A stretch of DNA of 64,000 bases, taken from Gammaproteobacteria bacterium (GTDB lineage: Bacteria; Pseudomonadota; Gammaproteobacteria; JAABTG01). Shown here piece after piece: positions 37,112-64,000 of the stretch. How positions within the stretch are numbered: the stretch's first letter is position 1; the number at the start of each line of letters is the position of its first letter. Under the pieces are notes generated by a model. The model saw only the letters and a list, made by a program, of their open reading frames with translations, searched no databases and had not been told where the DNA came from. The translations under genes were made by a program, and so were the position numbers. The stretch covers positions 1,116,001-1,180,000 of the forward strand of contig JAXHLS010000002.1 in NCBI GenBank assembly GCA_034522055.1. Reading direction: 5' to 3'.

Positions 37112-39013
37112 ATGGAAGCGGAAATCCGCGAGATTCGCGATCATATGGGCCAGTATCCGCCCTTCGACGGTCTGAAGGACGAACTCCTCGACGAGGCGGC
37201 CGGCGCGGTGGAGATCGCCTATTTCAAGGCCGGCACCGCCATCTCCGAACGGGACCAGCCGGTCGAGGCCCTGTCCTATATCCGCAGCGGTGCGGTGGAG
37301 GTGTACCTCCACAACGGACAGCTCTACAACCGCCTCGGCGAGGGCGATATCTTCGGCCAGTTCGACCTGCTGCGTGACCGCCAGGTGCGCTTTCCGGTCC
37401 AGGCCATCGAAGACACCCTGCTCTATCTGATCCCGAAGCCCGTATTCGACCGCCTGTGCGCCGCAGACGGCAACTTCGCCGATTTCGTGGAGCTGTCCGG
37501 GTCGCGGCTCAAGAGCACGGTGGAGCAGAGCCTGCGCGACAACGACATGATCGCCACCCGGGTGCGCCGGCTCATCTCCCGCCTGCCCGTGATGATCGAG
37601 GAATCCGCTACCGTGCAGGAGGCAGCCCGCCTGATGACGGAGAACGACGTCTCCTCGGTGCTGTTGCTCAAACCCGGCAACGACGAGGACTCGGACCGCG
37701 TGTTCACCGACGGCGAAGGGCGGCAATGGCTGCTCACGGGCATGATCACAGACAAGGACCTGCGCCAGCGCATCATCGCCGAGGGGGCCTCGGCCCAGAC
37801 CCCCCTGGCCACCATCAGCCACGGCAAGCTCATCACCATCCAGTCCGACGAGTCGGTCAACGAGGCCATGTTGACCATGCTGCGCAACAACATCCAGCGC
37901 CTCCCCGTGCTCCATCGCCGCCGTCCCGTGGGGGTGGTGCACCTGTCGGACATCGTACGCTACGAGACCAACAACAGCGTCTATCTGGTCAACAACATCT
38001 TCAACCGCACCTCCGTCAAGGCCCTGGCGCGCCTCACACCGGAGGTGCGGGCCTCCTTCGTGCGCCTGGTGGACGAGGGTGCCTCCTCGCAGATGATCGG
38101 CGGCGCCATGTCGAGCGTGGGCCGCAGCCTGATGCGCCGCCTCGTGGAGTTCGCCGAGGCCGAACTGGGTCCGCCCCCCATCCCCTACTGCATCATGGTG
38201 CACGGCTCCCTCGCCCGTAACGACCAGTCCATCACCACGGATCAGGACAATGCCATGGTGCTCCATGACTCCTTCGATCCGAAGCGCCACGATGACTACT
38301 TCAGGGAGCTGGCCCGGCAGGTAAGCGACGGGCTGGACGCCTGCGGCTACCCCTATTGCAAGGGCGGCGTCATGGCCACCAACGAGCCGTGGCGCCAGCC
38401 CCTCGCCCAATGGAAGCGCTACTTCAGTGACTGGATCGCCAGGCCGGACCCCCAACGGCTGCTGCACAGCTCCATCTTCTTCGACCTGGACGCCGTCCAC
38501 GGCGAGGAGCGCTTCGTGGAGGAGCTGCAGGACCTCATCGCCGCCCGGGCCCAGAACAGCCCCCTGTTCCTCGCGGCCCTGGCGCGCAACGCCCTCGGCC
38601 GCACGCCGCCGCTGGGCCTGTTCCGCACCTTCGTGCTGGAGCAGGACGGGCGACACAACAACACCATCAATATCAAACGCCGCGGCATCGCCCCCATGAA
38701 CGACGTCATCCGGGTCCATGCCCTGGGGGTGGGCTCCCGGGCCCAGAACGGCTTCGAGCGGCTGGAGGACATCAGCGGGGCCGGGGCCCTGCCCGCCGGG
38801 CAGACCGACAAGCTGAGCTACGCCCTGGAGTTCCTGTCCATGGTGCGCATGCGCCACCAGGCGGAGGATATCAAGAAGGACCAGGAACCCGACAACGCCA
38901 TCGAACCCGAACTCGTCTCGGATACCGACCGCCACAATCTCAAGGAGGCCTTCCAGATCCTGAGCAACGCCCAGAAGTTTCTGCGCTTCCGCTACCCCAG
39001 CCCGGGCCGCTGA
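37112..39013 (+). CDS. CNB-CBS-CBS-DUF294 nucleotidyltransferase-like protein
   Basis: The 633-residue protein has four parts in order: a cyclic-nucleotide-binding-like domain (about 20-135), two CBS domains (about 150-290; PVMIEESATVQEAARLM and VNEAMLTMLRNNIQRLPVL), a GlnD-like DUF294 nucleotidyltransferase (about 340-470; HGSLARNDQSITTDQDNAMV with the G-S...D-x-D signature), and DUF294_C. The CNB pocket has FGQ rather than FGE, so ligand binding is doubtful. Such proteins are often encoded next to DEDDh exonucleases, as here. The target of transfer is unknown. Confidence 0.9.
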   Translation: MEAEIREIRDHMGQYPPFDGLKDELLDEAAGAVEIAYFKAGTAISERDQPVEALSYIRSGAVEVYLHNGQLYNRLGEGDIFGQFDLLRDRQVRFPVQAIEDTLLYLIPKPVFDRLCAADGNFADFVELSGSRLKSTVEQSLRDNDMIATRVRRLISRLPVMIEESATVQEAARLMTENDVSSVLLLKPGNDEDSDRVFTDGEGRQWLLTGMITDKDLRQRIIAEGASAQTPLATISHGKLITIQSDESVNEAMLTMLRNNIQRLPVLHRRRPVGVVHLSDIVRYETNNSVYLVNNIFNRTSVKALARLTPEVRASFVRLVDEGASSQMIGGAMSSVGRSLMRRLVEFAEAELGPPPIPYCIMVHGSLARNDQSITTDQDNAMVLHDSFDPKRHDDYFRELARQVSDGLDACGYPYCKGGVMATNEPWRQPLAQWKRYFSDWIARPDPQRLLHSSIFFDLDAVHGEERFVEELQDLIAARAQNSPLFLAALARNALGRTPPLGLFRTFVLEQDGRHNNTINIKRRGIAPMNDVIRVHALGVGSRAQNGFERLEDISGAGALPAGQTDKLSYALEFLSMVRMRHQAEDIKKDQEPDNAIEPELVSDTDRHNLKEAFQILSNAQKFLRFRYPSPGR

Positions 39014-50894: not shown

Positions 50895-52883
50895 TCAGGA
50901 ACCGATGATGCCGCCATCCTTGCGGGTGATGACGATGGTGGCGTCCCGGGGCACGGTGACTCCGTCGGGGCCGCCCTGCTGGGGGAAGTTGCTCTCCGAT
51001 GCGTCACCGCCACCCGGATGCTGCACATTGATGAACATGGTGCGGCGGTCCGGGGTCGGGGCGACACCGGTGATCTCGCAGCCCGGCACGCCGGTGAAGA
51101 TGCGCTTGATCTCCTTTGTATCGAGGTTCGCCACCAGCATCTGGTTGTTGAGGCCGTCCGCCTGGCCACCGTCGGTCTGGATGAACAGGCGGCCGTCGGG
51201 GTCGGCCCAGATACCGTCGGGATCGGAGAAGCTCTCCTCGGTACCGTGGGTGTCCTGGGAAAACACGAATATGTCCCACGCGAAGGTGGTGCCGGTATGG
51301 CCCGCGGTCTCCGTCCAGCGGATGATGTGGCCGTCAGGGTTGGGGGTGAGGGGGTTGGCCTCGTCCGCGCCGGCGTCCACTTCCCGACCGTTGACCGTCC
51401 GCGTGCCGCCAGTGCGCTGGCGGTTGTTGGTCAGGGAGCAGTAGACCTGGCCGTCGGGGGCCACCGTGATCCACTCGGGGCGGTCCATGGGGGTGGCGCC
51501 GGCCATGTCCGCCGCCTTGCGGGTGTTCACCAGCAGTTCGCCCATGTCGGCGAACACGTCTCCGAGCACACCGCCGTCCTTCATGGGGCCGTCCAGGGTG
51601 AGGGGCAGCCACTCGCCGACACCACGGTTATCGCCGCTGGTACCGCCGCTGGTGGCATCGTCGTCGAAGCGGGCCGCATACAGGGTGCCGCGGTCCAGGG
51701 GGCTCTCGCCGTTGGCGCGCATGGTGCGCCAGTCCTCGGCGGAGACGAACTTGTAGACGTACTCCCAGCGCTCGTCGTCGCCGATGTAGACCACCACCCG
51801 GCCGTCGGGGGCCACGAAGTTGATGGCGCCCTCGGTCTTGCGCCGCCCCAGGGCGGTGCGCTTGACCGGGGTCTGGTTGGGGTCGAAGGGGTCGATCTCA
51901 ACAACCCAGCCGTAGGTGTTGGCCTCGTTCTTGTAGCCCGGGTCCGCCAGGTCGAAGCGCTTGTCGAAGAGGTGCCAGAAGTAGCCGAAGCCGCCACTGC
52001 TCATGCCGTAGCGGGTCTCGGTCTCATCGGGGGTCCAGGCCGCATCTTCGGTGCCGAAGTAGCCGTGGAAATTCTCCTCGCAGGTGAGGTAGGTACCCCA
52101 GGGGGTGACGCCATAGGCACAGTTGTTCAGGGTACCCAGGGGCACGTTGCCGTTGGCGGTGGCGAGCAGGGAATGACCGGCGGCGGGGCCGCTGAAGGTC
52201 ACCGGGGTGTTGGCGTGGATGCGCCGGCCCAGGTCGCCTTTCACCGTGCGCCAGCGACCGAAGCGGCCGGGGGAGCGCTTAATCTCGATGACCGACACGC
52301 CGTGGGCATGCTGAGAGGCCCGCACCTCGTCGAGGTTGTCGGGCACGGGCTTGCGCAGCACGTGGTTGTTGGTGCCGAACTCGTGGTTGAGGCACAGCAC
52401 GCCGTGGAAGTTACCGGGGCCCATGCCGAGGCGGCGGTCGTCCCACGGATTCAAGTCGTTACCATCATCCCAGCCGAAGCGGGGGCGGCGGGGGTTGCGG
52501 ATGGGGAAGAACCACATGCCGTCGTGGCCGATGCCGATCTGCTGGGTCTGAGCCTCGGGATCCACGGGGATCTGGAAACCGGGACCACCGGGCTCGATGG
52601 GGTCACCCCAGGGCAGGATGATGTCGAAGTCGTAGTCGACGGAGATGTTGGGGTCGATGCCACCGCCGTCGGCCACCGCCACGGGGGTGAAGCCCATGAG
52701 TTCGCCGCCGCGCCGGCCGCGGCCCACGAAGGCCTCGGCCATGCCCATGGGGCCGATGACCGCGAGGGTAGTGGCCGCCGCGACGCCGCCCTTCAGGACC
52801 CTGCGGCGGGCCAGATTGACCTTGAGTACGTCTTCAAAGGGGCGGTTGCCCGAATTGTTGCTGATGGGGTTGTCATCTTTCAC
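50895..52883 (-). CDS. phoX: PhoX-family Tat-exported alkaline phosphatase
   Basis: The GTG at 52883 follows TGGAGG and gives 662 residues. The N-terminus has a twin-arginine signal (NLARRRVLKGGVAAATTLAV). Conserved PhoX segments include FHGVLCLNHEFGTNNHV, NNCAYGVTPWGTYLTCEENF, GYGWVVEIDPFDP-like TYGWVVEIDPFD, and DGIWADPDGRLFIQTDGG. PhoX enzymes release phosphate from organic esters in the periplasm using Ca and Fe. They are usually under PhoB control; a weak Pho-box-like site lies upstream. Confidence 0.92.
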   Translation of the reverse strand: MKDDNPISNNSGNRPFEDVLKVNLARRRVLKGGVAAATTLAVIGPMGMAEAFVGRGRRGGELMGFTPVAVADGGGIDPNISVDYDFDIILPWGDPIEPGGPGFQIPVDPEAQTQQIGIGHDGMWFFPIRNPRRPRFGWDDGNDLNPWDDRRLGMGPGNFHGVLCLNHEFGTNNHVLRKPVPDNLDEVRASQHAHGVSVIEIKRSPGRFGRWRTVKGDLGRRIHANTPVTFSGPAAGHSLLATANGNVPLGTLNNCAYGVTPWGTYLTCEENFHGYFGTEDAAWTPDETETRYGMSSGGFGYFWHLFDKRFDLADPGYKNEANTYGWVVEIDPFDPNQTPVKRTALGRRKTEGAINFVAPDGRVVVYIGDDERWEYVYKFVSAEDWRTMRANGESPLDRGTLYAARFDDDATSGGTSGDNRGVGEWLPLTLDGPMKDGGVLGDVFADMGELLVNTRKAADMAGATPMDRPEWITVAPDGQVYCSLTNNRQRTGGTRTVNGREVDAGADEANPLTPNPDGHIIRWTETAGHTGTTFAWDIFVFSQDTHGTEESFSDPDGIWADPDGRLFIQTDGGQADGLNNQMLVANLDTKEIKRIFTGVPGCEITGVAPTPDRRTMFINVQHPGGGDASESNFPQQGGPDGVTVPRDATIVITRKDGGIIGS

Positions 52884-53208
52884 CGTGTAGCCTCCATTGG
52901 CTGTGTTCTGGGGAGCGCCAACGGTAGCGGAATGCCATGACAGGTCCGTGAAGGATCCATGATGGTTGAGGGAAAGGTAATCGCCCGGCAGGCCCATCCA
53001 AGGCGGGTGGTGCATGCGCCGGATGCGCGCGCCGCCGACGACGGTGCCACCGGCCCCTGGATACCGGGGCAAGCCCGGCATGACGGTACGAACAGCGAAT
53101 GCCGGCTCAAGCCCCGCATGACGGCAGGAAGGCGCCATGTCGAGGCCGGCTTGACGAAAGGAGGAGGACGCCGGAGGAGATTCGGAAGTGATGGTCCCGG
53201 GAGCCGCC
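52884..53208. other. 325-bp region between the ABC exporter and phoX
   Basis: No gene is supported. It should hold the phoX promoter and the end of the ABC gene. Confidence 0.45.
52937..52954 (-). promoter_or_regulatory. Weak Pho-box-like site upstream of phoX
   Basis: On the minus strand, CCTTCAC-GGAC-CTGTCAT has the 11-bp spacing of two PhoB half sites. The second half is exact and the first is poor. It is about 54 bp before the phoX start. Confidence 0.3.
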
Positions 53209-55020
53209 TCAGGCGGTCTGGTAATCCCCGTAGAGCTTGGCGTAGAGGCCGCCGCTCTCCATGAGTTCGCGATGGCCGCCCTGTTCGATGATGCGGCCGC
53301 TCTCGAAGACGTAGACCCGATCCGCCTGCTTCACCGCCGACAGGCGGTGGGCCACGATGAGGGTGGTGCGACCCTCGAGGAAGCGGTGAAGGGCGTCGTG
53401 GAGCCGGGCCTCGGTCTCGGTGTCCAGGGCCGAGGTGGCCTCGTCGAGGATCACCACCCGCGGATCGGACAAGACCATGCGCGCCACCGCGAGACGCTGG
53501 CGCTGGCCGCCGGAGAGGCGCACGCCCTGGCGCCCCACCACGGTGTCCAGGCCGCGGGGCAACTCGGCCATGAAGTCCCGCAGCTGGGCGATCCCCAGAG
53601 CGCGGTGGAGTTCCTGGTCGGAAGCCTGCCGCCCCAGGGTGAGGTTGGCGCGGATGGTGTCGTTGAACAGCGCCGGATGCTGCAGCACCACGGCCACGTT
53701 CTCGCGCACCACGTCGAAGCCCACCTGCTCCACCGGCACGCCACCGTAGTACACGGTGCCCGAACGGGACGGGTAGAGTCCCACCAGCACCTGCACCAGG
53801 GTGGACTTGCCGCCGCCGCTCGCCCCCACCAGGGCCACCTTCTCGCCCGGCTGGATGCTGAGGGATACGCCATCCAGCACGCGCGGACCATCGCCGTAGG
53901 CGAAGGTCACATCGGCCACTCGTATACCCACGGTACGCCGGCCGGCGAAGGGGTCGCTGTGGCTGGGGTACACCGGTTCCGGCTCCAGGGTCAGCAGTTC
54001 GTTGATGCGCCCCAGGGCCGCCTTCGCCCCATAATAGGAATACTGCATGTTCAGCAGTTCCTGCACCGGGGACATCATGAACCACAGGTAGCCGAACACC
54101 GCCATCATCTGGCCCACGGACAGGTCGGAGAACACCACCATCAACATGCTGACGGCCCGAAATACCTCGAAGCCCAAGAGGAACACCAGGAATGACATGC
54201 GGTTGGCGGCATCGCTGCGCCAATGGAAGGTGATGCCGTGGTCCCTCACCTCTCGGGCCATGTCCACCACCCGCCCGAGATAATGGCGCTCGCGGTTGCT
54301 GGCCCGGATCTGCTGAATGGCGTCCAGGGCCTCCGTGAGGGACTCCTGGAACACCTCGAAGGCCTTGTTCTCGCGCTTCTTCAGTTCCTTGACCCGCCCG
54401 CCCAGCACCACGGTGAAATAGATCACCAGCGGGTTCATGAAGAGGATGAACAGCGCCAGGGGCCAGTGGATCCACAGCAGCACTACGGCGGTGCCGATGA
54501 TGGTAAGCACGGCGATGAGCACCTTGCCGACGGAGGTGCCCAGGAACTCGTCCACCGACTCGATATCGGTGACGAAGTGGGAACTGACGCGGCCGCTGCC
54601 CATGGTCTCGTAGGAGGCTAGGGACACCCGCTCCATGCGCTGCAGCAACTCCCGGCGCAGGCGGTAGGTCACGTCCTTGGCGATGACGGTGAACTCGCGG
54701 GTCTGCCATACCGCCAGCATGGTAGCGCCGAAGCGCAGGCCCATGGTCACCACCATGATGGTGAGGATATAGAGCACCGGCCCGTGGAGTCCCGCCGGGA
54801 AAACGGCCTGGATGGCCCCCACGATGGCCCCCGGCTGGTCCAGCAGCACTTCGTCCACCATCAGGGGCATCAGCAGCGGCATGGGGATGGACAGGGCCGC
54901 TGAGATGATGGCGATGACGTGGGCGAACACCAGCTCGCGCCGGTGACGCAGGATCCCCTCCATGAGGTAGCGCCAGTCGTAACGGCGCTCGCCGGAGGCA
55001 GCCGGATCGTGGTCAGCCAT
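53209..55020 (-). CDS. MsbA-like ABC exporter (fused permease and ATPase)
   Basis: From ATG 55020 the product is 603 residues: six membrane helices (about 25-300) of the type 1 exporter fold, then an ATPase with Walker [10 protein letters not shown], the signature [14 protein letters not shown], Walker [13 protein letters not shown] and the H-loop IVAHRL. Half transporters of this kind dimerise and move lipids, lipid A or peptides. Its place at the end of the pqi/RND/two-component set suggests a lipid substrate, but this is inference. Confidence 0.9.
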
Positions 55021-55122
55021 GGGGATACCGACCGCAGGGCCATGGCAGCACCTGGGGGCCCCGGCCCATGGTGGGAAGTGTGCCGGGCAAGCGGCGCACG
55101 ACAAGGCTGGACCCCGGGCCGC

Positions 55123-55815
55123 TCACGGCAGATGGAGGGTGAACACGCCCCCGCCAAGCCCCCCGCCATTGCCGAGTTCCATGGTACCCCTGGAACCCCG
55201 GTGCTCATGACCGGCCATCACCCGGGACGCGAAATAGAGACCGAGACCGGTGCTGGAGTTGCGGAAATTCATGGCATGGGCCTCGGGTCCCACCATCTCG
55301 ATGATGGATTGGGGATAGCCCTCGCCATCGTCCTCCACCCGCATGGCCAACCACTCCCCCTCCAGCTTCGCGGACAGCCGGACCCGCCGCCGGGCATAGC
55401 GCACGAGGTTGTTGAGGGCATTACGCACCACGCCCATGACCAGATTGTCGTCGAACACCCACACCAGATCGTCGTCACAGTCGATGTCCACGGTGAGGCC
55501 GCCGGTGACAAACACGGACTCGAACTCGAAAAAGGCCTCGTGGAGAAAGTCCGCCACCGCCACCTGGCGCGGATTGACGGCGAATTCGCCCCGCCCCATG
55601 CGGTAGAGGGCCAGGAGTTGAACCAGGTGATTGTTCAGCCGGCGCGCCTCGGCCTGCACCGGATGGAGCTCCTGCTGCATCGCCGGCATGGTCGTTTCCA
55701 CCCGTTGGCTAAAGCCGTCGATGGCGTTGATGAGCGTCCCCAGGGAGTTCTTCATGTCGTGGATGGTGGAGGCCAGGATGGTCTCGAAGTCGGGCCCGGG
55801 CGGCTGGTCAGTCAT
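55123..55815 (-). CDS. Small soluble sensor histidine kinase
   Basis: The 230-residue protein has an H-box-like segment with His19 (STIHDMKNSLGTLINAID) and a C-terminal HATPase (VMGVVRNALNNLVRYARRRV, VEDDGEGYP, STGLGLYFASRVM). There is no membrane or sensor domain. It starts 14 bp after the response-regulator gene behind GGAGG, so the two should work together. Confidence 0.88.
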   Translation of the reverse strand: MTDQPPGPDFETILASTIHDMKNSLGTLINAIDGFSQRVETTMPAMQQELHPVQAEARRLNNHLVQLLALYRMGRGEFAVNPRQVAVADFLHEAFFEFESVFVTGGLTVDIDCDDDLVWVFDDNLVMGVVRNALNNLVRYARRRVRLSAKLEGEWLAMRVEDDGEGYPQSIIEMVGPEAHAMNFRNSSTGLGLYFASRVMAGHEHRGSRGTMELGNGGGLGGGVFTLHLP

Positions 55816-55829
55816 GGCAAACCGCCTCC

Positions 55830-57452
55830 TCAAGACCCGCCCGCGGCGGCGGCCAGCTTTTCCAGGCGCTCCCTGACCGAACGGTACTTGGCGTTGTCGG
55901 GGTCCACCTTCGCCACCCGTTCGAGGTAGCGCTCAGCCTCCGCGAGGAGCTTCTGATCTACGCCCTTGTCCCGCATCTCGATCACCAGCACCTGGGCGGC
56001 GTTGAGGTTCACCACGCGATTGGCCGGCATGCCCTCGGCGGCGTCCCGGAACAGGGCGATGGCCTCACCGAGCTTGCCGGCGCGGGCCAGGTCCACCCCC
56101 TCGTTGTTGAGGCGGATGAGCTGGTCCTGGGTGGCATCCACCATGGCGCTGCCCCGCTCCCGCAGCCCGGCCTCGGCGAACACCGATTTGACCTCCGCCA
56201 GCAGGGCCTCGTCCTCGTGATTGTTGCGTACCAGCTCCTCGAGGAGATGGGCTGCGGCATCGGCCTTGCCTTCTTCGAACAGGCGGCGGGCATCATCGAG
56301 GGACGAATGGCGCGCATCCGCCGGCTCGCCGGCGGCCGGTTCCACCGCCGCCAGGACGGCGCGCGCCTCATCCTCGCGCCCCATGGACTTCAGTACGCCC
56401 CCCTCCAGGAGTGCCGCCCGGCGGGCGTCCTCGGCGTTGGCTTCCACCCGGTGGATACGCTGCCCTTCCCGCAGGGCGCTGAGGGCGCCGCTATCATCGC
56501 CGGCGGAGTGGAGCGCCTCCGCGAGGCGCGTGTGATCCGACAACGACCGAAAGGATGAGTATCTGTTGAGCCGTACCACCGAGCGAAAGGCCTTGCCCGC
56601 CAGCTCGTAATCGGCATTCCCGTAGGCCAGTTCTCCCAGCGCCTTCTGGCGATGTACCGACTTGGGCGACAGGGCGGTAGCCTGGGCCAGCACCTGTTGC
56701 GCCTGGCGGGTGTTGCCGCGAGCCTTTTCCACCCGGGCCAACCAGTCGTAGGCCTCCATGGCGAGACGATTCGATGACACGAGTTCGGCGAAAATGTCAT
56801 GGGCCTGTTCCAGATCGCCCATATGGAACAGGCAGATCCCCCGTCCCAGCTTCGCCCAGTGCAGCTCGCGGTGGGCCAGCACCTCGTCGTAGAGGGCGAG
56901 CGCACCGGCGTGATCACCCGCCTCCAGCAGCAGTCCCCCCTTGCGTTCCATGATCTCGAGGCCGTAACGACCCTTGTGGGCCAGCCCCTCGTCGCAGCGG
57001 GCGATGGCGCCCCGCACATCGCCGGCCGCCGCCGCCGCCTCGATGGGCGCGAACTCGGCCTTGCGAGCCATGGCCCTGTCGAGACGCAGTTTCAACGCGT
57101 TGCGGTTGAAAGGCTTGATGATGTAATCGTCGGGCTTGTGATCCACCGCCCCCAGCACCATGTCGATGCTGGTCTCGGCGGTGACCATGATGAACACCGC
57201 CGCGGGCTTGAGCAGCCGGCGCGCGCGCGCCTCCTCCAAGATCTGCTGGCCGTCCTTGGAATCGCCGAGGTTGTAGTCGCACAACACGGCGTCCATGGGG
57301 AACCGGGCCATCTCCTTGATGGCGTCCTCGCCATTGGCGGCCAACCTGACCTCCTTCGCGCCCATGGCCTCCAGCATCTGCCGGATGGCACGCAGCATGT
57401 CGTCGAAGTCCTCGACCACGAGAAAGCGCTTTTTCGTATAGTCTTCGGACAT
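55830..57452 (-). CDS. Response regulator with TPR repeats
   Basis: The 540-residue protein starts at ATG 57452. The receiver (residues 8-125) has Glu14-Asp15, phospho-Asp59 (AVLCDYNLG) and Lys113 (YIIKPFN). The remainder is a chain of tetratricopeptide-like helices (about 140-535; AKLGRGICLFHMGDLEQAHD, ALGELAYGNADYELAGKAF, LNNEGVDLARAGKLGEAIAL). No output enzyme or DNA-binding domain is seen, so it should act by protein contacts. The gene order puts it between the RND transporter and the histidine kinase. Confidence 0.9.
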   Translation of the reverse strand: MSEDYTKKRFLVVEDFDDMLRAIRQMLEAMGAKEVRLAANGEDAIKEMARFPMDAVLCDYNLGDSKDGQQILEEARARRLLKPAAVFIMVTAETSIDMVLGAVDHKPDDYIIKPFNRNALKLRLDRAMARKAEFAPIEAAAAAGDVRGAIARCDEGLAHKGRYGLEIMERKGGLLLEAGDHAGALALYDEVLAHRELHWAKLGRGICLFHMGDLEQAHDIFAELVSSNRLAMEAYDWLARVEKARGNTRQAQQVLAQATALSPKSVHRQKALGELAYGNADYELAGKAFRSVVRLNRYSSFRSLSDHTRLAEALHSAGDDSGALSALREGQRIHRVEANAEDARRAALLEGGVLKSMGREDEARAVLAAVEPAAGEPADARHSSLDDARRLFEEGKADAAAHLLEELVRNNHEDEALLAEVKSVFAEAGLRERGSAMVDATQDQLIRLNNEGVDLARAGKLGEAIALFRDAAEGMPANRVVNLNAAQVLVIEMRDKGVDQKLLAEAERYLERVAKVDPDNAKYRSVRERLEKLAAAAGGS

Positions 57453-57530: not shown

Positions 57531-60293
57531 TCATGGCCCCTCCTCCCGCCCGGCATAGCGCCGGGTCATGGCGGCGAGGCGCGCGCCGAGGATGGCGCTG
57601 ATATTCAAGTTGAGACGCGCCACGACGTTGGGAAAGAACTTGAGATCCTTACGGATCTTGTCGAAATCGAAGCGCAGGACGCTGACCGGGGTAAGGGCCC
57701 TGACGTCCGCGGTGCGCTCCGTCTCCTGCACGAAACCGATCTCACCGAACACCTGCCCCGGCAGCAGCACCGTAAGCCGGCGCTGGGCATCCTTGCCCCG
57801 GTGCATCACCTCCACCTCGCCGGACAGGAGGAGAAACATGCTGCGGCCCATCGTGCCCTGGCGCACCAGCAGCTCGCCGGCCTCGAACTCGTGGAGTTCG
57901 GAGATGAGAATGGCCTTGCGCATCTGGTAGCCGCTCATGCCCCGGAACAGGGGACTGTGCTCCAGCACCTCCCGCTGCATGGAGAAACCCAGGATCTGAT
58001 ACAGGCCCACGAGGCGTACCCGGGCCATGATGATGGGGGTGATGAGAAGATTGGCGAATACCGCGAACAGCATGGTGGCGGCCGCCAGGGCACCGAACTG
58101 GGCGATCACGGTGAACTCGGAGAACAACAACACCCCGAAGCCCAGGGCCAGGGCGATGCTGGTGGCCACCACCGGTGTGGCCTCCTCCCGCACCGTGGTG
58201 GCCACCGCCTCGTCGTAATCCGCGGTGCGGCGGCACAAGTCGTTGTAACGCGAAAACAGGTGAATGGTGCCGTCGATGGCGATACCGATGGCGATGACGG
58301 CCACCATGGCGGTGCCGGGATTGAGGGAGATGTCCAGCAGGCCCATGACCCCGAACATGAGGATGATGGGCACCACCGCCGGCACCAGGGCGATGAGCCC
58401 CCCCTTGACGGAGGTGAACATGACCGCCATGACCACGAAGATGGCCCCCAGCAGCATCGTCAGGGATTTCACCTGGGCCACCATGAGGGACTCGGCGGCG
58501 GCATTGACCATGAGGTTCTCCCCCACGACATGGGCCTCCACCCCGGGCCCCGCGATGTCCCGGGCCACCACCTTGAGTTCCCCGATATGGCGGTTCAGGG
58601 TGCTGGAGTCGCTGACCTGATGGCGCACCACGATGTTGGCTCTCTGGTAGTCGTGACTCAGGTAGCTGCCGAGTTCCTGGCGATGGAAAAACAGCAGGTA
58701 CTGGGCCACCAGTTCGCGGCTGCCGGGGATGGTGGCGTAGTCCTCGTCGCCGCCGTGGTAGGCACGGTTGATCAGGGACAACAGGTCCACCACCGAGGTA
58801 CTGCGATCGAAGATCCCCTGCTTGTCGAGGAAGGCTTGGATCTCCGCCAGCCGTTCGAGATTGGCCGGTTCCAGGAAGGCCTTGTCGCGGCGGGATTCCA
58901 GCATGATGTAGAACACCCGGGTGCCCGCCAGGTCCTGCTGCAGGCGGCGGCTGTCCGTCACCAGGGCGCGGTCGCCGCGGAAATAGGTCATGGGGTCGTT
59001 GGTGACATGGAGACCCTGGGCCTGGTAGAGGAAGAAGGCGCACAGCCCGGCCGTGAATACCAGCAGGGTGCGGGGCAGGTGGCGGTGGCCGAAGCCGAAC
59101 ACCCGCACCACCAGCCCGGTGAGCCCGCCGGGCCGGCCGCCCTCGCCCCACACCCGGCTGCGCCGGGGCCCCAGGGCCTGAAGCAGCAGGGGCACCAGCA
59201 ATACCGTGATGAGGCCGTTGGCGAGGATGGCGAAGGACGCCGCGATGCTGAAATCCCGAATCAGACCGATGCCGCTGAACAGGTTGCTGGCGAAACCCAG
59301 GGCCGTGGTGACGACGGTGAGGACCAGCGGTGCCCCCATGTGGCCCATCATGAAGCCCACCGCCGCCCGCCGGGGCACCTCGCCGTCATGGCCCAGCCGG
59401 CGCAGATAGGCCGCCACCATGTGAGTGTCCTCGGTAGAGCCGATGACCACGACCAGGGAAGGCAGCATGGCACTCAGGATGTTGAGGGGGATCCCCGCCC
59501 AGCCCATCATGCCGAAGGTCCAGAGAATGGCGAGGGCCGAGGTGAGCAGGGGCACGAAGGCTGCGAAGCCGCTGCGCAGGAACAGCAGGATGGTCGCCAC
59601 CAGCAGGCCCGCCGACAGCAGGCCGAGGCGGCGCAGATCGGTGAACAGGCTGTCCTGCAATTCGGCGGTGATGCGAGCCCCGCCCACCTGGAACACCTCA
59701 GAGAAGTCTTGGCGGGCGGCGTCCACCACCTCTTCCAGGGCGGCATGGACCCGCTGCCCCCCCCCCGCGGCGGGACCATCACGCCGCAGGGCGACCATGA
59801 GGGCCGTGCCGTGGCCGTCGGGCGCCAGCAGCCGGCCCACCGCCAGGGGGTTGGCCAGCGCCACCTCCCGAGCCCGATCCGCCACCTCCTGGGTCTGGGG
59901 CACCTCTTCGAGAAGGGGCTGCACGGTGAGTGTGTCTTCACTCCCATGGATGTCGCGGAGGGTGAACAGATCATCCACCGTGGCCACGAAATCGAGCCCC
60001 AGCAGCGCGTGATGCAGGCGCTCCAGGGCCGCCAGTTTCGCCGGCGTCCACAGGGCCGGGTCGCGCACATAGACCACGCTGCGCTGGTCCGATCCGAACT
60101 CATCCGCCACCCGCCGGTAAGCGAGACGATCGGGATCGCTGTCGGCGATGAGGCTGGAGAAACCGGTATCCACCTGGAGCCGGGGCAGGCCGGCAGCGGC
60201 GACGGCCGTGACGGCGGCGAGGAAGAACAACGCCCGGAAGGGGTGACGGGCCCCCGCCATCATGGACCTGCCGAGGAATCCCTGGGCATTCAT
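57531..60293 (-). CDS. RND/MMPL-type transporter with C-terminal cyclic-nucleotide-binding domain
   Basis: From ATG 60293 (overlapping the previous stop as ATGA) the protein has 920 residues. Residues 1-775 form a two-half RND exporter of the MMPL/HpnN class, about twelve membrane helices with two large periplasmic domains. Residues about 785-915 are a CNB domain (LFRGMSGYQMRKAILISELH; MGRSMFLLLSGEVEVMHRG) with the phosphate-binding cassette FGEIGFVQETERTADVRA, where both the Glu and the Arg are kept. RND proteins with a LolA-like partner carry lipids or hopanoids to the outer membrane. The CNB domain would lie in the cytoplasm and could gate export. Confidence 0.9.
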   Translation of the reverse strand: MNAQGFLGRSMMAGARHPFRALFFLAAVTAVAAAGLPRLQVDTGFSSLIADSDPDRLAYRRVADEFGSDQRSVVYVRDPALWTPAKLAALERLHHALLGLDFVATVDDLFTLRDIHGSEDTLTVQPLLEEVPQTQEVADRAREVALANPLAVGRLLAPDGHGTALMVALRRDGPAAGGGQRVHAALEEVVDAARQDFSEVFQVGGARITAELQDSLFTDLRRLGLLSAGLLVATILLFLRSGFAAFVPLLTSALAILWTFGMMGWAGIPLNILSAMLPSLVVVIGSTEDTHMVAAYLRRLGHDGEVPRRAAVGFMMGHMGAPLVLTVVTTALGFASNLFSGIGLIRDFSIAASFAILANGLITVLLVPLLLQALGPRRSRVWGEGGRPGGLTGLVVRVFGFGHRHLPRTLLVFTAGLCAFFLYQAQGLHVTNDPMTYFRGDRALVTDSRRLQQDLAGTRVFYIMLESRRDKAFLEPANLERLAEIQAFLDKQGIFDRSTSVVDLLSLINRAYHGGDEDYATIPGSRELVAQYLLFFHRQELGSYLSHDYQRANIVVRHQVSDSSTLNRHIGELKVVARDIAGPGVEAHVVGENLMVNAAAESLMVAQVKSLTMLLGAIFVVMAVMFTSVKGGLIALVPAVVPIILMFGVMGLLDISLNPGTAMVAVIAIGIAIDGTIHLFSRYNDLCRRTADYDEAVATTVREEATPVVATSIALALGFGVLLFSEFTVIAQFGALAAATMLFAVFANLLITPIIMARVRLVGLYQILGFSMQREVLEHSPLFRGMSGYQMRKAILISELHEFEAGELLVRQGTMGRSMFLLLSGEVEVMHRGKDAQRRLTVLLPGQVFGEIGFVQETERTADVRALTPVSVLRFDFDKIRKDLKFFPNVVARLNLNISAILGARLAAMTRRYAGREEGP

Positions 60294-61144
60294 CCCTCGC
60301 CATCCCCGGCGGGCGCCACGGCCGGGACGGCGGCGGTGTCTTCGATATGAGAATTGGTGAGCAGCCAGTCGGCCTCGAACAGCCGCGCCGGCACGTAGTC
60401 GCGGGAGAATACCCGCCGCAGCACCTTGATGAGGCTGCGATGGTCCCGCCGGTGGTCCTCCATGAGCACCATATCGGCCCGCCACATGTCACCGTCCACC
60501 GCCTTGAGGTCGAAACGGGTACGCGTCTTCTCCACCCGGCCGCGGCGGTCATAATAGTCCGTGCGCACGATGAACAGGTTGTCCTGGCGCAGAAAGTGGC
60601 GGCGCCGCGACACTCCCGCCGAGTCTTCGAGGAGCTCCGCCTCCACCACGTAGTGGGGCACCTCGCCGAGAGTCCGGTCCTCGAGCCGGCGGTAGCGGAA
60701 GGCATCACCATCCTCGGGCAACAGGTCCCCCACCGTGAAATCCGTACCCAACAGCCGGCTCTGGCGCGCCGCCACCGCGCCCCCCTTGAGGCGCGGGCCG
60801 AAGGCCGGCAGATAGAGGCCGGTGTCCCGGCTTCCGTCCGGCCCATGGATGGAGCGCAGGGCCACGCCGCGCACCTCCGGCGGGTCGTCGAACACCAGCA
60901 ACAGGCGCAGGGTACCGTCCGCCTCGATGCGCGAGAAACGCCGCAGCCGGTAACTGACGCGGTGGCCGGCGGCATCGTCCAGAATCAGGGACTGCTCCTC
61001 GTAGACGTGGGGATAATGCTCATGGCGGCGGGCCGACTCCGCCATGATATCCGCCCCCGACCATTGCGGGGAGGCGACAGCGGCGGCGGTGGACAGCAGC
61101 AACACCGTGGCGCAAAAAGGGGCCAGGCTCAGGGGACGGGCCAT
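60290..61144 (-). CDS. LolA-like outer-membrane lipoprotein-sorting family protein (PF17131)
   Basis: The 284-residue protein has a signal peptide (SLAPFCATVLLLSTAAAVA) and then DIMAESARRHEHYPHVYEEQ, SYRLRRFSRIEADGTLRLLL and GLYLPAFGPRLKGGAVAARQ. This is the LolA-like fold typically encoded just before MMPL/RND transporters. It probably carries a hydrophobic cargo through the periplasm. It lies 5 bp after pqiC and overlaps the RND gene. Confidence 0.88.
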   Translation of the reverse strand: MARPLSLAPFCATVLLLSTAAAVASPQWSGADIMAESARRHEHYPHVYEEQSLILDDAAGHRVSYRLRRFSRIEADGTLRLLLVFDDPPEVRGVALRSIHGPDGSRDTGLYLPAFGPRLKGGAVAARQSRLLGTDFTVGDLLPEDGDAFRYRRLEDRTLGEVPHYVVEAELLEDSAGVSRRRHFLRQDNLFIVRTDYYDRRGRVEKTRTRFDLKAVDGDMWRADMVLMEDHRRDHRSLIKVLRRVFSRDYVPARLFEADWLLTNSHIEDTAAVPAVAPAGDGEG

Positions 61145-61149
61145 GCCGT

Positions 61150-61806
61150 TCAGGCACCCGCCGGCCGGCCGCCGGCGGGGGAGGCGTGGCGGCGGATGGC
61201 CGCCGCCATGTCACGGCCGAGACGGGCGAACATCACGGCCATGGCCGCCACCGTGGTGTTGTAGTCCGCGCCGGGGACCAGGGGTGCGCTCTCGAGTTCG
61301 CTCACCCGCGTCTCCAGGGTGGTGCGGCCCGCCCCGTCCAGCACCCGCCACCAGGCCGCCAGGGCCACGCGCCGGTCGGGACCGCGCTCGAAACGGGTGA
61401 TCTCCAGTTCCACCAGCAGATCGGCGTCGAGGCCCGCCCGGTGGGGAGGACCCGATACCCGGCTCGTGCCCAGCTCGCGGGACAGGTTCTGCACCATCAC
61501 GCTCACCAGGTTCTTGCGCAGATTGCCCCCCCACTGGTGATACTCCGCCAACTCGAGGCGCTGGGGCGCGCTGCGGGTGACGATCTGGGGACGCTCCAGG
61601 TACTGGGGCAGCCGCAGCTCCAGCAGCTTCACCGTGAGTTCCGAAGCCGGCGCCGCCGGGCCGTCCGGTGCGGCCACCGCGTCCAACACGTAGTAGCGCA
61701 CCGGCGGGGCCTGGGAGCCCATGCAGCCGCCGAGGACCAGGGCCAAGGCCAGGACCATAACCATGACGACCCACCAGGGCCCGGGCGGAGTGGAATGGCG
61801 GGTCAT
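61150..61806 (-). CDS. pqiC: PqiC-like lipoprotein (ABC-type transport auxiliary)
   Basis: The 218-residue product has a lipobox (LALVLGGC) and PqiC/DUF330 features: VRYYVLDAVAAPDG, LRLPQYLERPQIVTRSAPQR, YHQWGGNLRKNLVSVMVQNL. PqiC sits in the outer membrane and contacts the PqiB tunnel. The start overlaps the pqiB stop (TGATG). Confidence 0.92.
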   Translation of the reverse strand: MTRHSTPPGPWWVVMVMVLALALVLGGCMGSQAPPVRYYVLDAVAAPDGPAAPASELTVKLLELRLPQYLERPQIVTRSAPQRLELAEYHQWGGNLRKNLVSVMVQNLSRELGTSRVSGPPHRAGLDADLLVELEITRFERGPDRRVALAAWWRVLDGAGRTTLETRVSELESAPLVPGADYNTTVAAMAVMFARLGRDMAAAIRRHASPAGGRPAGA

Positions 61807-63500
61807 CACTGCCCCCCGGGGGGTTGCTTGCCGAAGAGGATGGACTGGGGGTTGCGCTCCAGCAGGTCCACCAGGTGGCGTATGGAACGGGCCATCTCCG
61901 CCAGCTCTTCCGTCATCTGGTTGAAGCGGTACTGGGCGGGCGAGTCCTGGGCCAGCACCTCGTTGAACAGGTTCATGGTGACTTCGATCCTCTCCAGGGC
62001 CTCGTGGCCGGAACCGAGGGCCTTCTCCATGTTGGCGGCGATGGGCTCGGCCCGGGCGTCCAGCTGGGTGAGGGTGCTGCGCAGTACCGCCAGGGTTTCG
62101 TTCAGCCCCCCCACCGCCTGCCGGGCATCGGCGGAATTCAGCAGCTGGTCGGCCCCTTCCAGGGCGCCTTGCAGGGCGGCACCTATCTTGTCCAGTTCCA
62201 CCGCCTCCAGCTTGGCCAACACGCTGCGCAGGGAGCCCGTGAGCTGCTCCAGGCGGCCCGGGATAGTAGGCAGTTCCGGGATATCCTCCCGATCGCTCAC
62301 CAGCCTCGGAGGCAGGTCGGGCCGCATGTCCAGCTCCACGAAGAGTTGCCCGGTCAACAGGTTCCCCATCTGCAGGCGGGCCCTCAGCCCTTGCTCCACC
62401 AGGGTCTGCAGCACCTGCTGGGGGTTCTGGTCTGCACCACCACCGCGGGCGATGACCCGCTCGGGTTCGATCTCGATGAGTACGGGGATACGGAAGGAGG
62501 TATCCCGCTGGTCGTACTCCAGGCGCACGTCCACCACTCGCCCCACCTTGATGCCCTTGAATTCCACGGGCGCGTCGATGGCCAGCCCCCGCACCGAGCC
62601 TTCGAAGAACAGCACGAAACGCACCTTCCTGGTATAGGTCTGCTCCTTGATGCGGGCGCGGCTCTCGTGGAGAGTAAACACCAGGCCGGCCACTTCCTCC
62701 GTGGCGGGCTCCAGGGTGTCGGGGGTGGCGAAGGCGATGCCACCGAACAGCAGGGACTGCACCGATTCCGTGCGCACTCTCAGGCCCTGGGCATCCACCG
62801 TGACATCCAGGCCGCTGATATTCCAGAAGCGGGTGTTGCCACGCACCATGTCCGAATAGGGGGCCTTGACGAAGGCGTGGATAAACACGTTCTTCTGATC
62901 GGAACTGAGTTCATAGCCCAACACCTCGCCGGCCAGGATCCCCTGGTAATAGAGGGGTGATCCGATATCGATGGACCCCAGCCGTTCGGCCATCAGCACC
63001 AGTCTCTTGCCCTCGTCCTCGGCGCGTACCACGGGGGGCGATTCGAGGCCATCGAAGTGGGTCTGAAAGGCACCGCGGCCCGGTTCGATCTCGATATAGG
63101 CCCCCGAAATGAGAGTGCCGAGTCCCGAGACCCCACGGATATCCAGCCGCGGCTTGACCACCCAGAAGCGGGTGCCACGGCGCAGGAAAGGCTCCGCCTC
63201 CTTCGCCATATCGGCGTGCACCACCACCGACTTGAAGTCCTCGGTGAAACGCAGGGACTGCACCACGCCGATCTCGATGTTCTTGTACTTGATGCGGGTC
63301 TTGCCGGCCTCGATGCCTTCCGCGGTCTTGAAGCCGATGGTGATCCGGGGGCCCTTCTCCGACAGGGTATCGACGATGAGCCAGCCGCCGATGAGGGCGG
63401 TGATGAAGGGAATCAGCCACACCAGGGACGGGCCGGAACGCGTCTTCACCCGCGGCGGCGGCATCCCCCCGGGCTGCTCCGTGCCGGCGGGCATGCTCAT
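61806..63500 (-). CDS. pqiB: PqiB-like MCE-domain protein
   Basis: The 564-residue protein has one N-terminal membrane helix (SLVWLIPFITALIGGWLIV) and three MCE repeats (GPRITIGFKTAEGIEAGKTR; a second near residue 155; RFVLFFEGSVRGLAIDAPVE), then a long helical C-terminus that forms the lipid channel of the PqiB syringe. It bridges the inner and outer membranes. It overlaps pqiA (ATGA) and pqiC. Confidence 0.94.
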   Translation of the reverse strand: MSMPAGTEQPGGMPPPRVKTRSGPSLVWLIPFITALIGGWLIVDTLSEKGPRITIGFKTAEGIEAGKTRIKYKNIEIGVVQSLRFTEDFKSVVVHADMAKEAEPFLRRGTRFWVVKPRLDIRGVSGLGTLISGAYIEIEPGRGAFQTHFDGLESPPVVRAEDEGKRLVLMAERLGSIDIGSPLYYQGILAGEVLGYELSSDQKNVFIHAFVKAPYSDMVRGNTRFWNISGLDVTVDAQGLRVRTESVQSLLFGGIAFATPDTLEPATEEVAGLVFTLHESRARIKEQTYTRKVRFVLFFEGSVRGLAIDAPVEFKGIKVGRVVDVRLEYDQRDTSFRIPVLIEIEPERVIARGGGADQNPQQVLQTLVEQGLRARLQMGNLLTGQLFVELDMRPDLPPRLVSDREDIPELPTIPGRLEQLTGSLRSVLAKLEAVELDKIGAALQGALEGADQLLNSADARQAVGGLNETLAVLRSTLTQLDARAEPIAANMEKALGSGHEALERIEVTMNLFNEVLAQDSPAQYRFNQMTEELAEMARSIRHLVDLLERNPQSILFGKQPPGGQ

Positions 63501-64000
63501 GGCCGGGGCTCCGCGTGGTCCCAGATGAGCCGCGGGTCGAAGCTGTGGGCCGCCAGCATGGTGAGCACTACCACGGCGGCGAAGAAGGTGACCCCGATAC
63601 CGGGCACCACCAGGGCCAGGGCATCCATACGCACCAGGGCCGCCAGGATGGCCACCAGGAACACGTCCACCATGGACCACGCCCCCACCACCTCGGTCAC
63701 CCGGAACAGCAGGGTACGATCCCGGGGCCGCCACGGCGAGGACCGCTGCACGGACACGAGCAGGAAGGACAGCACACCGAGCTTGGCGACCGGCACCACG
63801 ATACTGGCGAAGAACACCAGTAGGGCCAGAGGCCACATGCCGTTGGCGATGAGTTCCACCACCCCCGACAGGATGGTGTTGGGCTCGCCGCGCCCCAGGC
63901 GGGTCACGGTCATGACGGGATAGAGGTTGGCAGGGATGAACAGCAACGCCGCCGACACCACCAGGGCCCAGGTGCGAACGATGGCGTCGTGCTTGCGAGC
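63497..64000 (-). CDS. pqiA: PqiA-like membrane protein, C-terminal part (runs off the window)
   Basis: The visible 167 residues contain four membrane segments with FIPANLYPVMTVTRLGRGEP, VVPVAKLGVLSFLL and GAWSMVDVFLVAILAALVRM, signatures of PqiA (paraquat-inducible protein A). The N-terminus is beyond base 64000. PqiA is thought to feed or receive lipids at the inner-membrane end of PqiB. Confidence 0.93.
   Translation of the reverse strand, partial: ARKHDAIVRTWALVVSAALLFIPANLYPVMTVTRLGRGEPNTILSGVVELIANGMWPLALLVFFASIVVPVAKLGVLSFLLVSVQRSSPWRPRDRTLLFRVTEVVGAWSMVDVFLVAILAALVRMDALALVVPGIGVTFFAAVVVLTMLAAHSFDPRLIWDHAEPRP

Follow-up and report, generated by a model that had tools for sequence, protein, structure and literature searches.

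The locus considered here lies in a stretch of 64,000 nucleotides from a gammaproteobacterial genome (the window), and it raises the question of whether a membrane pump of the RND superfamily can be controlled directly by a cyclic nucleotide. The open reading frame at 57531-60293 of the reverse strand had been described in an earlier note as an RND transporter fused to a cyclic-nucleotide-binding (CNB) domain. To our knowledge, there are few descriptions of second messengers controlling RND pumps at the post-translational level.

The frame is intact, begins with ATG, and encodes 920 amino acids; an overlap of 4 bases (ATGA) joins its start to the stop of the gene upstream. The fusion of an MMPL/RND transporter with a C-terminal CNB domain is borne out by Pfam, which finds MMPL in two stretches of the pump (E = 1.9e-30, 106.4 bits against a cut-off of 20.5) and cNMP_binding (PF00027) at residues 801-881 (E = 6.2e-20; score 71.4 bits, cut-off 27.5). 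An AlphaFold2 model of the full protein, computed from an alignment of 31 sequences (its own and related ones), has a mean pLDDT of 84.3 and a pTM of 0.77, and it contains 12 long membrane helices and two alpha/beta periplasmic domains, with the C-terminal part forming a separate beta-roll and a C-helix at residues 888-913. Three parts can be delimited on the reverse strand: the pump (residues 1-756, 58026..60293; from Pfam, the model, and Foldseek), the link that joins TM12 to the CNB domain (residues 757-797, with RVRLVGLYQIL, 57903..58025; conserved in the fusions), and the CNB domain with its C-helix (residues 798-913, 57555..57902; from Pfam and a model of the CNB domain by itself).

Other fusions of this kind were sought in a set with a single genome for each species, which gave 16 loci, among them 15 relatives that share at least 54% identity; further loci came from 398 genomes in the phylum of the window, 297 in that of genome G403, and 77 in that of genome G408 (Nitrospinota). 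After the removal of duplicates, 55 distinct fusions were obtained, the window's own and 54 further sequences.

The best Foldseek matches of the full model were found to be the mycobacterial transporters MmpL5 and MmpL4 (TM ~0.6 of the query), and human NPC1L1, Burkholderia HpnN, NCR1, and Patched were also matched. The protein shares with the MMPL/HAE3-type RND transporters (MmpL3/4/5, HpnN, and the NPC1/Patched relatives) the two MMPL halves, the 12 helices, the periplasmic domains, and an aspartate in TM10. It differs from them in its cytosolic CNB domain and in scoring far below the curated cut-offs of the NCBIfam HAE3 subfamily (TIGR00921, 176.7 bits against 351.9) and of the profiles for the hopanoid transporter HpnN (89.2 against 751.85 and 27.7 against 1100). 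The TM10 aspartate, D674, is present in all 55 fusions, and E288 of TM4 is present in 49 of 54, with tyrosine in the other five; by analogy with RND pumps, these two residues would occupy the proton-relay positions. The pump had also been called a lipid exporter. The fold matches to MmpL5/MmpL4, NPC1L1, and HpnN and the Pqi and LolA-like genes beside it argue for that description, with a lipid as the putative cargo and export as the putative direction.

The phosphate-binding cassette, FGEIGFVQETERTA, is located at residues 849-862 (57708..57749, reverse strand) on the basis of residue conservation across the fusions. The earlier note had read an intact pocket from the FGE and R-T-A residues, and this reading holds throughout the collection. 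G850 and E851 were found in 54 of 54 readable fusions (one row is unreadable), G846, R860, A866, and N897 in 55 of 55, and A862 in 54 of 55. Position 861 is threonine in 41 fusions, serine in 9, and valine in 4, and positions 856-859, which lie between E851 and R860, vary freely. The constancy of G850, E851, and R860, which hold the ribose and the phosphate, extends to fusions as distant as 28% identity.

Since structural comparison of the whole model barely tests the C-terminal part, the CNB domain was modeled separately. This model (pLDDT 87.6) matches cAMP-bound CRPs with Z ~16 and also the CNB domain of PKG with cGMP; PKG I is the best Foldseek match, and the closest PDB sequence matches of the domain are cGMP-dependent kinases. 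The domain thus resembles the CRP/PKA-type CNB domains (MtbCRP, GlxR, PKG I, and SthK) in its fold and its phosphate-binding cassette, but it is carried by an RND pump, and no DNA-binding or kinase partner was found. The conserved pocket leads us to predict that the domain binds a cyclic mononucleotide. Among cAMP, cGMP, and c-di-GMP, the last would be the least likely ligand because the conserved motif is the E/R motif of mononucleotide sites.

Of the two remaining ligands, cAMP would be the most likely and cGMP possible. The base contacts in the C-helix of E. coli CAP are made by R123, T127, and S128, which align by eye (a lead only) with I901, R905, and L906. R905 is conserved in 53 of 55 fusions and sits at about the place of T127; R123 and S128 are not retained. 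With these replacements in the by-eye alignment, the adenine-contact residues of CAP are not kept, and a CAP-like recognition of adenine would not be preserved. A ligand other than cAMP, either cGMP or a pyrimidine cyclic nucleotide such as cUMP or cCMP, is possible, although we consider it unlikely. The R-T pair at positions 860-861, with threonine in 41 of 55 fusions, resembles the cGMP-responsive sites of PKG and CNG proteins, and the PKG matches in sequence and structure agree with this, as does the presence of a cUMP-binding CNB domain (8jsk) among the structural matches. However, a threonine at position 861 fits cAMP as well, and the genome encodes a CRP-like protein (GELGLFDEEQKRSAWVRA, in L162) and five class III cyclase domains, one of them within a CNB-GAF-PAS-cyclase protein (L052), and these point to cAMP as a signal that the organism already uses. 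Domains of class III cyclases (PF00211) were detected in 21 of 21 fusion genomes of one set and in 11 of 12 of a second, the exception being a 1.6 Mb Nitrospina MAG. They were also detected in 20 of 22 sampled genomes that do not carry a full-length fusion; the presence of cyclases is therefore consistent with control by cAMP but does not discriminate, and cyclase co-occurrence was dropped as a discriminator.

The 5.1 Mb genome gave 33 matches to cNMP_binding in all. They include two CNB-rhodanese proteins (L051 and L053) and, at L055:1619-5101, an FeeM-like N-acyl amino acid synthase with a C-terminal CNB domain adjacent to a CNB-CNB-NTE/patatin phospholipase. A paralogue of the pump-CNB protein (L049:7567-10815; C2:3259677-3262358) carries an additional C-terminal GGDEF-like domain with a degenerate GGNRF motif (Pfam E = 9e-6), and in another genome (L071) a protein of this arrangement matches GGDEF strongly (E = 8e-21). 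A second CNB protein of the window, at 37112-39010 of the forward strand, is a CNB-CBS-DUF294 nucleotidyltransferase in which a pattern search found no GE...R cassette. Two CRP/FNR-like CNB segments on contigs C5 and C6 (L168 and L172) are identical over the aligned part, which reflects the duplication either of a gene or of a contig end.

The operon in which the pump gene lies is absent from the earlier note and likely gives the gene its job. The order on the same strand is PqiA-PqiB(MCE)-PqiC-LolA_like-MMPL-CNB, and it recurs across phyla. The gene with the 4-base overlap encodes a LolA_like protein (PF17131, E = 1.1e-23; 60290..61144), a probable periplasmic carrier. It is preceded by the conserved genes for a PqiC-like outer-membrane lipoprotein (ABC_trans_aux, E = 1e-34; 61150..61809) and for a PqiB-like MCE protein with MlaD domains in three stretches (E = 7e-34; 61806..63560), whose start codon is provisional because the open frame extends to 63836. 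The PqiA-like inner-membrane protein (E = 1.1e-50; 63497..64000) runs past the end of the window, and its counterpart in L050 continues to the equivalent of about 64744. PqiA, PqiB (MCE), and PqiC have homologues in the same order in the lipid transport system of E. coli (PMC10897342), and the window's operon differs in being extended by the LolA_like gene and the RND-CNB gene.

Genes for PqiB or PqiC adjoin 34 of 56 fusion loci and 0 of 20 loci of CNB-less MMPLs (Fisher p = 5e-7, uncorrected for kinship), as counted with profiles that were built from these loci and with several of the 56 fusion loci cut by contig ends. In three loci (L130, L135, and L139), the Pqi genes remain adjacent to the pump gene although they are encoded on the opposite strand. 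A LolA-like neighbor was found at 46 of 56 fusion loci and at 19 of 20 control loci, and the CNB-less pairs of LolA_like and MMPL thus share the two-gene neighborhood of the fusions while differing in having neither a CNB domain nor nearby Pqi genes. The distant fusions (~28-37% identity) have mostly kept the LolA-like partner and mostly have no Pqi genes. No RND-CNB gene was found beside 20 PqiABC operons taken from loci outside the fusion neighborhoods, two of which have a CNB-less MMPL several kilobases away. Since the distant fusions mostly do without Pqi genes and most PqiABC operons do without the pump, the Pqi pairing is a feature of one subclade. In another lineage, a protein of 1234 amino acids directly downstream of PqiABC (L157:2652-6353, reverse strand) has two CNB domains at its C-terminus, and Pfam finds no other domain in it; it is possible that this protein connects Pqi to cyclic nucleotides by a second and independent route.

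Downstream of the pump gene, at 53209-57452 of the reverse strand, there are genes for a response regulator with TPRs, an HATPase_c protein, and an MsbA-like ABC exporter. Only L011, the nearest relative, has these regulator, kinase, and transporter genes at the corresponding position, and they were not counted as members of the system. A PhoX-type alkaline phosphatase (Pfam E = 2e-132) is encoded further downstream, at 50895-53138 of the same strand.

The reading that we consider probable is that of a proton-driven MMPL/RND lipid pump that works with the LolA-like carrier and the Pqi/MCE bridge and whose activity is set by a cyclic mononucleotide at the cytosolic CNB domain. The pump would reside in the inner membrane and would be driven by the proton motive force (PMF) through a relay of D674 and E288, as in other RND transporters. 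The CRP/PKA-type CNB domain would lie in the cytosol after the last membrane helix, and the binding of cAMP, or possibly cGMP, may move the C-helix together with the conserved segment that leads to TM12, such that pumping is raised or lowered. Lipid or another hydrophobic cargo would then pass by way of the LolA-like carrier and the PqiB bridge between the inner and the outer membrane, and the pump may be in physical contact with the Pqi proteins. Within the link, R760 is conserved in 47 and L761 in 49 of 55 fusions, and residues 757-797 may couple the CNB domain to the pump.

The bound nucleotide may instead govern assembly, stability, or the recruitment of a partner, for example by docking to PqiA or to a cytosolic lipid enzyme, rather than the rate of pumping. 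The synthase and the patatin protein described above show that CNB domains are also fused to lipid-related enzymes in this genome, and such domains may therefore mark proteins of lipid metabolism for co-regulation; the conserved Pqi operon likewise favors an output other than rate. The link between TM12 and the CNB domain, however, is short and conserved, as would be expected of a direct coupling to the pump, and we regard this explanation as rather unlikely.

A purely structural or oligomerizing role of the CNB domain, free of any ligand like its counterparts in EAG channels and FNR-type proteins, is improbable. FNR-type domains do not bind cyclic nucleotides. They match the CNB model nearly as well as the CRPs (Z ~14.8), EAG domains of the same fold are also among the structural matches, and the fold alone is therefore no proof of nucleotide binding. 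In addition, of 23 distinct CNB domains read in this genome, 11 do not keep both the glutamate and the arginine and 12 do, as judged by eye from the CNB segments (a stricter script pattern gave 10 of 24 rows, with one spurious match). Against this stands the constancy of E851 and R860 in all readable fusions while positions 856-859 vary freely. Loss of the pocket is frequent in CNB domains generally and never occurs in the sampled pump-CNB fusions.

An assembly or annotation artifact is ruled out for practical purposes: an independent genome (L011, L056) has a copy at 90% identity, and the fusion recurs in 54 further distinct sequences, a number that excludes chance as well. Absence from relatives, by which the earlier note would have judged the fusion an artifact, is clearly not the case.

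The carriers of the fusion belong to the Pseudomonadota, the Desulfobacterota (Desulfobacterales), and the Nitrospinota, with one labeled only Deltaproteobacteria; the same pump-plus-sensor is present in at least three bacterial phyla. One MAG labeled Bordetella parapertussis (L012) has both the fusion and the operon, and its name looks misassigned because its pump groups with those of environmental proteobacterial MAGs. In a maximum-likelihood tree of the pump part, with 53 fusions and 18 CNB-less MMPLs, a single branch (SH-aLRT 99, one label change) has all fusions to one side of it, a pattern that fits one fusion event and its long retention afterwards. A single origin is likely rather than proven by these sequences, as some control branches are long and the tree was made by a quick method. 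No clear case of CNB loss was found among the sampled members of the close clade. The apparently CNB-less loci were not counted as losses: contig ends cut the genes of L016 and L081, and the CNB part lies in another frame right behind the pump in L015 and in L080/L100.

Membrane proteins with a cytosolic CNB domain are known from cyclic-nucleotide-gated channels (SthK) and from the CNBD fusions of MFS transporters that are named in a review (PMC10710835); the MFS belongs to a different transporter superfamily from RND, and the passage of that review on these fusions makes no mention of RND-CNB fusions. The open-access literature gave us no description of an RND-CNB fusion or of RND genes within a Pqi operon and nothing relevant on PF17131 together with RND, although subscription journals or preprints may describe such a fusion. 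The MMPL and CNB kinds of domain are both known, and it is their combination, its conservation, and the operon that appear new to us.

PqiA of E. coli has no known energy source, and a passive process, an unidentified ATPase, and the PMF have each been proposed (PMC10897342). A PMF-driven pump in a Pqi operon is therefore a candidate partner. We tentatively suggest, with less than even confidence, that a second-messenger-gated, PMF-driven RND pump energizes or feeds the Pqi/MCE lipid bridge by way of the LolA-like carrier. If true, this would place a multi-component machine for envelope lipid transport under direct post-translational control by cAMP or cGMP, and it would bear on the powering of Pqi-type bridges, which have no known ATPase. 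Export of envelope lipids may, in these bacteria, be switched directly by a second messenger. With a widespread family that combines a PMF-driven pump, a LolA-like carrier, PqiABC, and an intact nucleotide pocket, the questions of how RND pumps are controlled and how Pqi systems obtain their energy become testable.
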